From Veillonella parvula DSM 2008 (GTDB lineage: Bacteria > Bacillota > Negativicutes > Veillonellales > Veillonellaceae): 64,000 nucleotides of DNA. Of this stretch, positions 38,308 through 60,676 are shown in pieces; position 1 is the first letter of the stretch; each line of letters starts with the position of its first letter. The position numbers and the translations under genes were made by a program. The DNA is taken from the NCBI RefSeq assembly GCF_000024945.1, contig NC_013520.1:358001-422000 (forward strand), given 5' to 3'. Below the pieces are notes generated by a model. It saw only the letters and a list, made by a program, of their open reading frames with translations. It made no database searches and had not been told where the DNA came from.

Positions 38308-38430
38308 GAAAAAGCCGAGCTCACAGGAACTCGGCCATTAATCCTCTATGTTCCCTACGTTGGCATTATCCAAATCAGGTTATGGGTTAAAGCTTTAGCT
38401 TACTCTCAGCCCACTTGTGTGAGCACCCCA
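38308..38430 (-). promoter_or_regulatory. TPP riboswitch with terminator, controlling cytX
   Basis: On the minus strand the THI core runs from GGGGTGC (38,430) through CTGAGAGT and ACCTGATTTGGATAATGCCAACGTAGGGAA, the conserved thi-box elements. It is followed by a GCCGAG/CTCGGC hairpin (38314-38335) and a U-tract. Ligand binding should free the terminator and stop cytX transcription. Confidence 0.95.
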
Positions 38431-38440
38431 TTATGGCTTC

Positions 38441-38469
38441 ATTATACGAGGTGCTACGGGAACCGTCAA
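38441..38469 (-). promoter_or_regulatory. Promoter of cytX
   Basis: Minus-strand TTGACG (38464-38469) and TATAAT (38441-38446) with a 17-bp spacer, directly before the riboswitch. Confidence 0.8.
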
Positions 38470-38477
38470 TTATTTTC

Positions 38478-38506
38478 TTGCATAGATTGTATATTGATGT
38501 TATAAC
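38478..38506 (+). promoter_or_regulatory. Promoter of the thiW operon
   Basis: TTGCAT (38478-38483) and TATAAC (38501-38506) with a 17-bp spacer. It lies back to back with the cytX promoter, only 9 bp between the -35 boxes. Confidence 0.7.
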
Positions 38507-38525
38507 TAGAGTATAAAAATATATT

Positions 38526-38662
38526 GCCACTAGGGGTGCTTTTGCTGAGATTGACCATTCAAAACCCTAGACCTGATCTAGATAATACTGGCGTAGGAAA
38601 GTGGAGTGAAACATAATACTAAACTATTACGAGACCATTCCATTTGGAGTGGTCTCGTTTTT
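38526..38662 (+). promoter_or_regulatory. TPP riboswitch with terminator, controlling thiW-thiD-thiME
   Basis: ACTAGGGGTGC, GCTGAGA, ACCCTAGACCTGATCTAGATAATACTGGCGTAGGAAAGTG form a complete thi-box (about 38526-38612). A stable CGAGACCA/TGGTCTCG hairpin (38630-38657) with a T-run follows, just before the thiW SD. Termination type is as for the minus-strand copy. Confidence 0.95.
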
Positions 38663-56719: not shown

Positions 56720-57949
56720 TTAGAATTGTAATGTTTTGATTCTTTCAACGGAACGAATTGTATTTTCACGGCTACCGAATGCTGTTAAACGAAGGTAACC
56801 TTCGCCGTGAGGTCCAAAGCCAGAGCCTGGTGTAGAGACAATTTGAACTTGTTCGAGCAAGATGTCAAATAATTCCCAACTTGTCATGTTACCAGGCGTT
56901 TTAAGCCAAATATATGGAGCGTCCACACCGCCATATACAGTAAGGCCGATAGATTCAAGTCCTTCTTTGATGATGCGAGCATTTTCTTTGTAGTATGCGA
57001 TGTTAGCACGAGTTTGCTCACGGCCTTCTTTTGTGTATACTGCTTCAGCACCGCGTTGGATGATGTAAGGAACACCATTGAATTTAGTGCATTGACGGCG
57101 GTTCCACATAGGGTTTAGCGGTTGGCGTTCACCCGATTTAGTTTTGCCAGTTACTTCTTTAGGCACAACTGCGTAAGCACAACGGGTACCAGTGAAACCT
57201 GCAGTTTTGGAGAAGGACCGGAACTCGATAGCTACTTCGCGAGCGCCTTCGATTTCGTAGATAGATTTTACAGTGTCTTCTGTGCTAATGAAAGCTTCGT
57301 AAGCGGAGTCAAACATCAAAATCGCATCATTATCTTTACACCATTTGATCCATTCTACTAAACGAGCACGGCTTAAAACAGTACCAGTAGGATTGTTAGG
57401 CGAGCAAAGGTATACAATGTCTACTCGTTCAGACGGGAATTCTGGAGAGAAGTTGTTTTCTGCATAAGTAGGGAGGTATACAACCTTTTGGAAGATGCCA
57501 TCTACAGATTCGCCAGTACGACCACCCATAACGTTGGAGTCTAAGTATACTGGGTACACAGGATCTGTGATAGCAATGATGTTATCTTCGCTGAATAACT
57601 CTTGGATATTACCAACGTCAGATTTTGCACCATCGGAAACGAATACTTCGTCAATAGCAATATCTACGCCTAATGGTTTGTAATCGCCATCAACAATAGC
57701 TTGACGTAAGAAATCATATCCCTGTTCAGGGCCATAACCTCGGAATGTTTCCGCTTTTCCCATTTCTTGAACAGCTTTACTCATAGCATCGATAATTGCT
57801 GGAGCAAGAGGTAATGTAACATCGCCGATACCAAGACGAATAATATCTGCATCTGGATGAGCAGTTTGGTATTCATTTACCTTTTTAGCAATATTAGCAA
57901 ATAAATAAGAACCTTGAAGGTTTAAGTAGTTTTCATTGATATTAGCCAT
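56720..57949 (-). CDS. dapL: LL-diaminopimelate aminotransferase
   Basis: PLP enzyme converting tetrahydrodipicolinate directly to LL-DAP with glutamate. 409 residues, normal for Dap[25 protein letters not shown] at the N-terminus and [22 protein letters not shown] with the Schiff-base Lys are the family hallmarks, and [19 protein letters not shown] follows near the end. LL-DAP would still need DapF to become meso-DAP; none is in the window. Ddh, encoded nearby, makes meso-DAP directly. Confidence 0.95.
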
Positions 57950-58160: not shown

Positions 58161-58201
58161 TTTACTCATAAAATAACTGTTGATATAATGAGTTTATGAG
58201 T
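58161..58201 (+). promoter_or_regulatory. Promoter embedded in an inverted repeat, upstream of the nuclease operon
   Basis: TTTACT (58161-58166) and TATAAT (58184-58189) with a 17-bp spacer. A 9-bp inverted repeat, ACTCATAAA (58164-58172) and TTTATGAGT (58193-58201), brackets the promoter, overlapping the -35 box and the start region, as an operator for a dimeric repressor would. Confidence 0.6.
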
Positions 58202-58286
58202 TAATATCTTGATTGTTTGTATGTAATGAGAGCTAAATTGTTGGCTGTGTTTAGGGGCGTAAATTGTTTTTTGGAGGGATATTATT

Positions 58287-59312
58287 ATGGTAGCTTGTAA
58301 GATGTCTATTAAGAAAATTTTTGATCGGATTAAGCGCGTTGATAAGTTTGAAGAGTTTAAAACAACCTATGGCATAACTCTTTCTGATGAAAAGGGAAAC
58401 ATAAAATTTGCAGCCAATTTTTATAAGTCAGCTATTGTAAATTACAAGGGGTATGTAAACGGCTCTAAAGACCTATATAGTGAAGTTATTGCCGAATCCC
58501 TTGTGAATGATAGTTTTATAAAAGATTGGTTAAATTTAATACCCGTAAGACCAGAACATTTTAAGATAAATCATCCGAATAAAGATGAAAACGTGGATGC
58601 CCTAAAAATTACTAATCGAAAAGAGGAAATATTAGCGAAGCTATTGTTTTATCAAGGTGAAGTTGCTGGATTAGGCTATATTTTTGATTGCCAAACACCA
58701 TTAAAAGCGACAAAAAATGATTCTTATGGGAAAATAGATTTATTAGGTTATAACACTGATGATAAATGTTATTCTGTCATTGAATTAAAATATCGTCCAT
58801 CTGGTAGTGAGGAAACTTTACTACGATGTGTTTTAGAGGCTTATACATATTATAAGCTGCTAGATATAAAACAGATTAATTCTGCTGTTGGCCATGATGG
58901 TATACAGAAACTAAAGAAATTACCTAGGTATGAACATACGAATGAAGCAGAGTTAGTCGTTTTATTTGATGAAAAATCTTGTACCGAAGATGACGGTGGA
59001 GCAGAAACTAATTTGATGCTTCGTATTGATCCAAATGAACCTAATAATCCTAGGTATCCATCCAAAACTGTTGTGTCACAACAGTTTAAAGAATGTAAAG
59101 AATTGATTGATTCTAGTAAACGTAAGGAGTTACAAACTTTATGTGAAGGAATTTTGGCACAAGAGCCTCATTTAAAACAAATTCGATTTGTTGTATTGCG
59201 TGCTGATACAGATAGTAAATCTTCTTATCCAACTAATATAAAAGGTTGGTCTAGAAAATTAGATCGATTATATCAAGCAGAGACATTACTAACTATTCCT
59301 AGTAAAGGTTAA
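58287..59312 (+). CDS. PD-(D/E)XK nuclease-like protein of unknown function
   Basis: A 341-residue soluble protein. Residues 148-170 read YGKIDLLGYNTDDKCYSVIELKY, a D...E-x-K arrangement (Asp151, Glu166, Lys168) typical of the PD-(D/E)XK nuclease core, preceded by Glu residues in helix one (about 113 and 125) and followed by a helix with RCVLEAYTYYKLL. The N-terminal 100 residues and C-terminal 130 residues match no family I know. GGAGGG precedes the ATG. It stops 2 bp before the metallo-hydrolase gene, so the two are coupled. A restriction-like or DNA/RNA-processing role is an inference from the fold only. Confidence 0.65.
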   Translation: MVACKMSIKKIFDRIKRVDKFEEFKTTYGITLSDEKGNIKFAANFYKSAIVNYKGYVNGSKDLYSEVIAESLVNDSFIKDWLNLIPVRPEHFKINHPNKDENVDALKITNRKEEILAKLLFYQGEVAGLGYIFDCQTPLKATKNDSYGKIDLLGYNTDDKCYSVIELKYRPSGSEETLLRCVLEAYTYYKLLDIKQINSAVGHDGIQKLKKLPRYEHTNEAELVVLFDEKSCTEDDGGAETNLMLRIDPNEPNNPRYPSKTVVSQQFKECKELIDSSKRKELQTLCEGILAQEPHLKQIRFVVLRADTDSKSSYPTNIKGWSRKLDRLYQAETLLTIPSKG

Positions 59313-59314
59313 GT

Positions 59315-60490
59315 ATGAATATAATTATCCATCGTGGCACTCATCAGATTGGTGGCAGTGCCATAGAAATAAGTACAGCATCTACTCGTATTATATTGGA
59401 CTTTGGTAACGAATTAAGTTTAGATGAAAAGTACATACCTATCAAACTAGATATTGATGGAGTTACAAAGGGAATACCTAATTGTGATGGAATTCTGATT
59501 TCTCATTATCATATGGATCACTTAAGACAACTAACCTCTGCATTACCAGAAATACCATTATATATGGGGAAACTGAGTAAGGAAGTGGCTATGATAGCAA
59601 CTGAACATCAAGATAAAGATTTATATTTACGTTTGTTAGGTGCAAATACATTTCGTGGAGGCGAAGCCTTCACTATTGGAAATATACATATTAGACCTTT
59701 GGTTATCGACCATAGTGCTGTGGATAGTTATATGTTTGTCATTGAAGCAGAAGGTAAACGTGTCTTATATACAGGTGATTTCCGGATGCATGGGTTGCGT
59801 AGTCATATAGTAGAGAAATTAGTTAAAACCTATATAGGCGAGGTTGATGTATTAATTACAGAGGGAACATTAGTATCTCGTGGTGTTAATGATGGTATAT
59901 CTGAAGCTGCTGTGTTAGAGGATATTTATTCGTATATCCAAGATGGAAAATATGTTTTCGTTATATGTTCATCTACGAATATTGACCGTATTATCGGAAT
60001 TTGGCAGAATATGCCAAGTGATAAAGTTTTAATTTGTGATGCTTATCAGAAAAGAATATTAGATACTGTGATTAATAATGTATATTATGAAAGCTCTTTG
60101 TATCGTAGACATGATAGCCCACTAGTTCTTAATAAAGGATCGTATCCTAAATATTATGTGGATCATGGGTTTGTATCCTTAGTAAGAGGAACAGAATATT
60201 TTATTTCTCATATTAAAGAGTTTCCTAAGGATGATGTACGTATTATATATTCTATGTGGACAGGATATATTGAAGAAAACCTAGCGTTGAAAACTTTGTT
60301 AGAGACCTACCCAACCTATATATGTCATGCCAGTGGTCATGTGTCTAAAGATGATTTGACTAAGTTTATAGAACTAGTTAATCCCGACGCTATTATTCCG
60401 GTTCATACTGATAATCCTGAGAGATTAGAGAAATTAGTTCCTCATAGAAATGTGTATGTTGTTAATGATAATGAGCCATTTATCATATAA
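59315..60490 (+). CDS. Metallo-beta-lactamase-fold hydrolase with beta-CASP-like ending
   Basis: A 391-residue protein with the complete MBL zinc set: HYHMDHL (His64, His66, Asp68, His69), a His at about 133, and the TGDFRMHG Asp at about 155. The C-terminal HASGHVSKDDL and IIPVHTDNPE resemble the last motifs of RNase J and other beta-CASP nucleases. At 391 residues it is shorter than RNase J (about 550) and lacks its C-terminal domain. The start follows the nuclease-like gene by 2 bp without a strong SD, indicating translational coupling. Likely an RNA or DNA nuclease. Confidence 0.75.
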   Translation: MNIIIHRGTHQIGGSAIEISTASTRIILDFGNELSLDEKYIPIKLDIDGVTKGIPNCDGILISHYHMDHLRQLTSALPEIPLYMGKLSKEVAMIATEHQDKDLYLRLLGANTFRGGEAFTIGNIHIRPLVIDHSAVDSYMFVIEAEGKRVLYTGDFRMHGLRSHIVEKLVKTYIGEVDVLITEGTLVSRGVNDGISEAAVLEDIYSYIQDGKYVFVICSSTNIDRIIGIWQNMPSDKVLICDAYQKRILDTVINNVYYESSLYRRHDSPLVLNKGSYPKYYVDHGFVSLVRGTEYFISHIKEFPKDDVRIIYSMWTGYIEENLALKTLLETYPTYICHASGHVSKDDLTKFIELVNPDAIIPVHTDNPERLEKLVPHRNVYVVNDNEPFII

Positions 60491-60517
60491 ATTTTCGAAG
60501 AATTTCTGTTTATGTTG

Positions 60518-60676
60518 TATAATAAGTAAAAAGAGAGCCATCAACGTGTGGTTGCGTTAGGCTCATCTTATAAACATTTTTTAGGATTGCCTAGCGTGCG
60601 AGTATTTTGAATACTCTGTTGCGTTAGGCATTTATCTTTACTCTACTTTGGGCATAGTATTTTACTATGCTTTTTT
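60518..60676 (+). ncRNA. Candidate structured RNA with repeated hairpin arm and terminator
   Basis: TATAAT at 60518-60523 is followed by three hairpins. I: AAGAGAGCC 60531-60539 with 60560-60569 (one bulge). II: GCCTAGCGTGC + GAGTATT 60589-60606 with 60610-60629. III: intrinsic terminator GCATAGTA 60652-60659 with 60663-60670 plus TTTTTT. The 12-mer GTTGCGTTAGGC is present both in hairpin I (60551-60562) and as the right arm of hairpin II (60618-60629), so the two can compete for the same partner. It could be an independent small RNA or the attenuating leader of the downstream efflux gene. Confidence 0.6.

Follow-up and report, generated by a model that had tools for sequence, protein, structure and literature searches.

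Two adjacent genes for putative nucleases of different kinds occur in a 64,000-nt stretch of DNA from the mouth bacterium Veillonella parvula DSM 2008 (positions 358,001 to 422,000 of NC_013520.1; hereafter the window), and they raise the question of whether the two proteins belong to one system and, if so, what that system might do. A sequence-only reading of the locus had proposed a candidate nuclease system with an adjacent structured RNA. Here, we follow that proposal through the layout of the locus, the predicted folds of the two proteins, their linkage in other genomes, and the roles that could be assigned to the pair.

The cassette and its site in Veillonella

The first gene (P1; 58,287–59,312, plus strand) encodes a PD-(D/E)XK-like protein of 341 aa, a predicted nuclease, and the second (P2; 59,315–60,490, plus strand) a predicted MBL-beta-CASP hydrolase of 391 aa. 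Both open reading frames are real and lie on the same strand, with the 2-bp spacing first described for them. The promoter placed ahead of the cassette was also recovered, as a sigma-70-type TTTACT-N17-TATAAT (58,161–58,189, plus strand) that is the best plus-strand match before the genes and is retained in all six Veillonella cassettes. An inverted repeat said to frame this promoter does exist in the window (58,164–58,172 pairing with 58,193–58,201), but its right arm is unconserved in the other five cassettes, and a role as operator was rejected for that reason. The genes flanking the cassette, named by inspection, are a dapL-like aminotransferase gene (56,720–57,949, minus strand) and an MFS transporter gene followed by ribosomal protein S6-like and SSB-like genes. 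The G+C content of the cassette is 0.32–0.335, compared to 0.40–0.42 for the flanking genes, and the cassette holds no methylase as a self/non-self mark, no helicase and no sensor gene. Elsewhere in the window (38,335–38,616), one TPP riboswitch is encoded on each strand, with about 80 nt between the two.

The neighbour of the cassette downstream is an sRNA-like element (60,518–60,672, plus strand) with a −10-like TATAAT (60,518–60,523), two hairpins (about 60,535–60,564 and 60,588–60,630) that both carry GTTGCGTTAGGC, and an intrinsic terminator (60,650–60,672, plus strand). The sequence-only reading was right about a structured RNA with a terminator, as the segment 60,515–60,680 folds better than its shuffles (z = −4.4, with 0 of 200 shuffles as good), but not about its belonging to the cassette: it stays at the same site in a cassette-free Veillonella genome (G007), is not found next to the G006 cassette, and recurs in diverged form at other loci of the genus, and was rejected as a cassette component on these grounds. 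No Rfam family matched the element, and the GTTGCGTTAGGC motif has no other occurrence in this genome. It looks like a separate sRNA gene equipped with a −10 box and a terminator of its own; this terminator can stop the sRNA as well as transcripts that read through from the cassette. In three species (L038:10905-11370, L039, and L040), an additional insert of roughly 190 nt separates the sRNA from the MFS gene; it contains GAGCCTAAC (with one change in L038), which is complementary to GTTAGGCTC of the sRNA, and may therefore represent a related hairpin facing the other way.

Within the genus, both genes were found in 6 of 14 Veillonella species genomes and neither in the remaining 8. The two are thus gained or lost together, and the site next to dapL is the same in every case; P1 had no match in the other relatives searched. 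The site on this side of dapL is empty in G007, where a 775-aa type I-like methyltransferase-specificity fusion (L058:2202-4529; PADLOC MTase_I, 2e-75) lies on the opposite side of dapL. In G013, a cassette-free genome, the final 36 nt of P2 survive along with a nearly intact downstream sequence (alignment score 289, against 32 for the best of 200 shuffles), a clear scar which shows that a cassette was deleted there; such losses occurred in at least two species. Defence genes may vary from genome to genome at the flanks of dapL.

The cassette also evolves rapidly where it is kept. Pairwise dN/dS was 0.22–0.45 for P1 and 0.12–0.30 for P2, about tenfold that of the neighbouring dapL and MFS genes (0.00–0.04), and both proteins are therefore maintained in a functional state yet change much faster than the flanks. 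The P1 alleles are mosaic: core columns 161–240 are 75–92% identical in all pairs, the first 120 columns only 24–63% identical in most pairs, and the last 80 columns 82–97% identical in the pairs window–G012 and G002–G011 and less so elsewhere. The N- and C-terminal parts of P1 thus differ between species, and the terminal blocks look as if they had been exchanged by recombination.

Predicted folds and catalytic motifs

The nuclease core attributed to P1 had been recognised from D151, E166, and K168. These positions proved correct, and together with E113 they are invariant among 11 aligned relatives. In the predicted model (pLDDT 78.6, pTM 0.84), residues of about 112–227 form an alpha-beta-beta-beta-alpha-beta core made of helix 112–123, strands 130–138, 149–156, and 161–168, helix 178–191, and strand 221–227, with D151 on strand 149–156 and E166/K168 on strand 161–168; the D and the (D/E)xK thus stand on adjacent strands, as is characteristic of the PD-(D/E)XK core. 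Structural neighbours found with a structural aligner were mostly PD-(D/E)XK nucleases, several of them from defence systems, and included PaqCI (Z 6.6), EndoMS (6.2), AF1548 (6.0), Can2 (5.6), HamA (5.2), and McrC (5.1), as well as FokI, Card1, and Shedu SduA, with modest Z values throughout (maximum 6.6, all below 8) that place the weight on the agreement in fold type rather than on any single entry. Foldseek alone gave nothing significant (best E 0.09), and no family model in Pfam, PADLOC, or NCBIfam scored above its cut-off. The best sub-threshold matches, YhcG_C in Pfam (15.5 bits against a cut-off of 32.5) and PDC-S02 in PADLOC, both fell on residues 133–170, the motif region; the superfamily is so diverse that a significant Pfam match is not required for membership. 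Given the modest Z values, the predicted fold and its neighbours support assigning P1 to the PD-(D/E)XK superfamily, as had been suspected, and we claim no subfamily.

P2 is more readily placed. Its zinc site (H64-Y-H66-M-D68-H69, with H133 and D155) is complete, in line with the first description, and H64, H66, D68, H69, H133, D155, E183, H338, H342, and H364 are invariant in 22 aligned sequences from Bacillota, Bacteroidota, and Proteobacteria. The protein therefore carries the full MBL-beta-CASP motif series, namely HxHxDH, the third His, the Asp, and motifs A (acid), B (His), and C (His). The HASGH noted earlier is present as H338-A-S-G-H342, but it is the internal beta-CASP motif B and not the C-terminus. 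Pfam placed MBL and RMMBL domains above their cut-offs and a weak DRMBL match, and the predicted model (pLDDT 84.7) combines an MBL fold with an inserted beta-CASP domain, matching beta-CASP enzymes, among them RNase J, CPSF73, and INTS11, at Z 31–37 over residues 1–391. As modelled, P2 is a complete MBL-beta-CASP nuclease with the RNase J/CPSF73 fold, and its nearest match is the structure of EF2904, an MBL-beta-CASP protein of Enterococcus faecalis (PDB 2az4). The latter is its best PDB sequence match, similarly short, about 20% identical, and superposable over the whole chain (Z 37.2, rmsd 2.7 over 367 residues); its structure was released in 2005, and it is not known to have a function or a partner assigned.

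How far do these proteins resemble the components of known systems? RNase J matches the P2 fold at Z 35 over the whole length and shares all of its catalytic motifs, but P2 is not RNase J proper, as it scores only 54.3 bits against the curated 400-bit cut-off of TIGR00649, lacks the C-terminal domain at 391 aa and is encoded by an accessory gene; the same genome has its own long RNase J-like MBL at another locus. Cas14 of type VII CRISPR, an MBL-beta-CASP effector of a prokaryotic immune system, is likewise close in fold (Z 34.3) but distant in sequence (20.6 bits against an 800-bit cut-off), and the cassette holds no CRISPR-type partners. On the P1 side, HamA (Hachiman), SduA (Shedu), Can2/Card1, McrC, and YhcG share the core fold and the D-(E)xK motif, but only at Z ≤ 6.6 and with sub-threshold family matches, and the helicase, CARF, and McrB partners of such defence nucleases are absent here, where the partner is an MBL-beta-CASP nuclease. 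PADLOC matched neither a model nor the partner genes of known systems (Hachiman, Shedu, Lamassu, DRT with MBL, and others), its best matches being weak (PDC-S02 at E 0.003 for P1; LmuA and RTasMBL at E 0.02 for P2), which agrees with the earlier remark that no known defence type contains this pair. Pfam, NCBIfam, and PADLOC contain no family for the pair, and the full-text literature searched, which included a minority of subscription journals, gave no description of it. The parts belong to known superfamilies, and their combination and the exchange of partners appear to be undescribed.

Linkage across phyla and partner exchange

Beyond the genus, the two genes occur in few of the genomes searched and are linked. 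Among 398 genomes of the phylum, the MBL subfamily was found in 9 (window included) and the P1 profile in 8, with both adjacent in 5, a co-occurrence with a chance probability of 8e-8; within one class of the phylum, 15 of 391 genomes had the MBL subfamily, which is therefore missing from about 96–98% of the phylum genomes searched. Full-length relatives of P2 with 28–36% identity were also found on plasmids of Butyrivibrio, Prevotella, Ochrobactrum, Rhizobium, Cereibacter, Sphingomonas, and Cupriavidus, and the pair itself on plasmids of Butyrivibrio, Rhizobium, Sphingomonas, Cereibacter, Cupriavidus, and others. Across Bacillota and Proteobacteria (the latter covered by plasmids rather than whole genomes), a PD-(D/E)XK-like gene was adjacent to the MBL gene or one gene away in 22 of 24 scorable loci, the exceptions being Prevotella and R. 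leguminosarum, and two loci at contig ends (G671 and G713) were left unscored. The D..(E)xK signature occurred in 25 of 80 neighbouring ORFs compared to 3 of 190 other ORFs, with a P value of 5e-12 that is indicative, as some loci are closely related (G626 and G747). Searched in reverse, five of the eight genomes with a P1-type match have an MBL gene beside it, and the other three matches are an orphan (G239), a truncated copy (G356), and a copy at a contig end (G432). The broken MBL genes of G582 and G627 stand without a partner, and the weaker MBL matches in G580 and G783 were rejected as members and form a separate, unpaired branch. This linkage and patchy presence indicate a conserved accessory pair, in line with the accessory operon of the sequence-only reading, and a housekeeping pair was rejected by the patchy distribution in genus and phylum.

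The Prevotella plasmid gene falls inside a clostridial clade of the MBL tree (support 98/94) and would represent a cross-phylum transfer, provided that its long branch is not misplaced. An origin in phages was rejected: a direct search found no P1 relative in phages, plasmids, or viral contigs, P2 had only distant matches in three phage records, and the P1-P2 pair was not found in viral contigs.

While the MBL component persists, its partner does not. The partner proteins fall into three groups, with 12 (the orphan included), 9, and 4 members, that show no significant mutual similarity beyond a weak match at the D..ExK core, and groups 2 and 3 are assigned to PD-(D/E)XK by motif only. Even among MBLs that are 79–83% identical (G513, G595, and G687), the partners do not match one another (E 0.02–0.22). 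Partner genes stand before or after the MBL gene, and in G730 (L150:7232-9059) a single operon joins one MBL gene to two PD-(D/E)XK-like genes that differ from each other. Several lineages add a third gene, encoding an HTH protein, a WYL protein, or, in Alphaproteobacteria, a small conserved "GIFW" protein that has no Pfam family and lies next to the MBL gene (L068:5558-5953, L069:5516-5992, L071:7256-7630, and L074:5555-5998). At two loci, a calcineurin-like phosphoesterase gene directly follows the MBL gene (L067:7455-8024 and L070:7215-7859). As judged from these comparisons of sequences and gene order, the module of two predicted nucleases is genuine, with exchangeable nuclease partners.

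Candidate roles of the pair

The layout of the genes suggests two apparently active nucleases encoded by a single transcript, one of them constant and the other exchangeable. We hypothesize that P1 and P2 form one accessory two-nuclease module whose members share a foreign or stress-related nucleic acid as target, with defence against phages or plasmids as the likeliest role and our best guess at about even odds (roughly 0.5). Mechanistically, P1 would be the variable component that recognises and cuts the target, and P2 the constant, RNase J-like component that would trim or degrade the cut product from its new end, with the HTH or WYL regulator possibly controlling the module in some lineages; we infer nuclease activity, a shared substrate (DNA or RNA), this order of action, and the role in defence. 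A patchy distribution, carriage on plasmids, rapid evolution, and mosaic alleles fit a conflict with phages or plasmids. Against defence count the lack of a methylase, helicase, or sensor gene in the cassette and the failure of direct searches to find P1 relatives in phages, plasmids, or viral contigs or the pair in viral contigs. The neighbourhood is less telling: a PADLOC scan of 127 neighbour proteins and 80 controls matched 46 and 43 families, respectively, with no clear excess, many of the control matches looking like housekeeping cross-matches, and only WYL regulators (five members, none among the controls shown) and a few restriction-modification genes (two type IIG and one type II) favoured defence. 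The defence system proposed from the sequence is thus consistent with distribution, divergence, and allele mosaicism, and the neighbourhood comparison showed no clear enrichment of defence genes. A more specific version, in which a constant RNase J-like MBL-beta-CASP enzyme serves an immune module of several phyla while interchangeable, unrelated PD-(D/E)XK nucleases set its target specificity, is put forward tentatively and with more doubt than the role in defence as such.

Other roles would account for part of these data. P1 could be toxic to its own cell, in an abortive or addictive manner, and be restrained by P2 through binding or through destruction of its product, with mobile elements keeping the module for its own sake. 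Such a toxin-antidote-like pair would suit two tightly spaced, patchy, and plasmid-borne genes that are lost by deletion, of which P1 diverges fast and P2 more slowly. We nevertheless consider it unlikely, as P2 is bigger than usual antitoxins and keeps every catalytic residue, which a merely binding antitoxin would not need, as an exchange over three partner families would be harder for a specific antitoxin, and as the orphan P1 of G239 exists without P2. Somewhat less probable again is an accessory RNA-processing or stress module without a role in defence, in which P2 would be a specialised RNase J-like enzyme acting on cellular RNA with the assistance of P1. The closeness of the P2 fold to RNases (RNase J, CPSF73, and INTS11) and the lack of a clear enrichment of defence neighbours speak for it, but the cassette is missing in 8 of 14 genomes of the genus and from about 96–98% of those searched in the phylum, has been deleted from at least two species, has low G+C content and a dN/dS about tenfold that of its neighbours, and has its partner nucleases swapped wholesale.

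MBL-beta-CASP enzymes also include the DNA nucleases SNM1 and Artemis, and P1 and P2 could accordingly be a pair for DNA repair or plasmid establishment, in which cutting by P1 would be followed by resection of DNA ends by P2, in the manner of SNM1-type nucleases. The weak DRMBL match of P2 and the presence of EndoMS/NucS and AF1548 among the structural neighbours of P1 would agree with this, yet P2 is nearer to RNase J than to SNM1 in both sequence and fold, and a patchy distribution and fast evolution are unlike a repair enzyme; this is the most improbable of the roles considered.

If the pair does protect against phages or plasmids, as we favour, it would represent a widespread immune module that escaped notice for want of a family model of its variable partner. 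It would also be a case of an RNase J-type enzyme working with restriction-type nucleases outside CRISPR, and would provide the first functional context for the EF2904-like branch of beta-CASP proteins.
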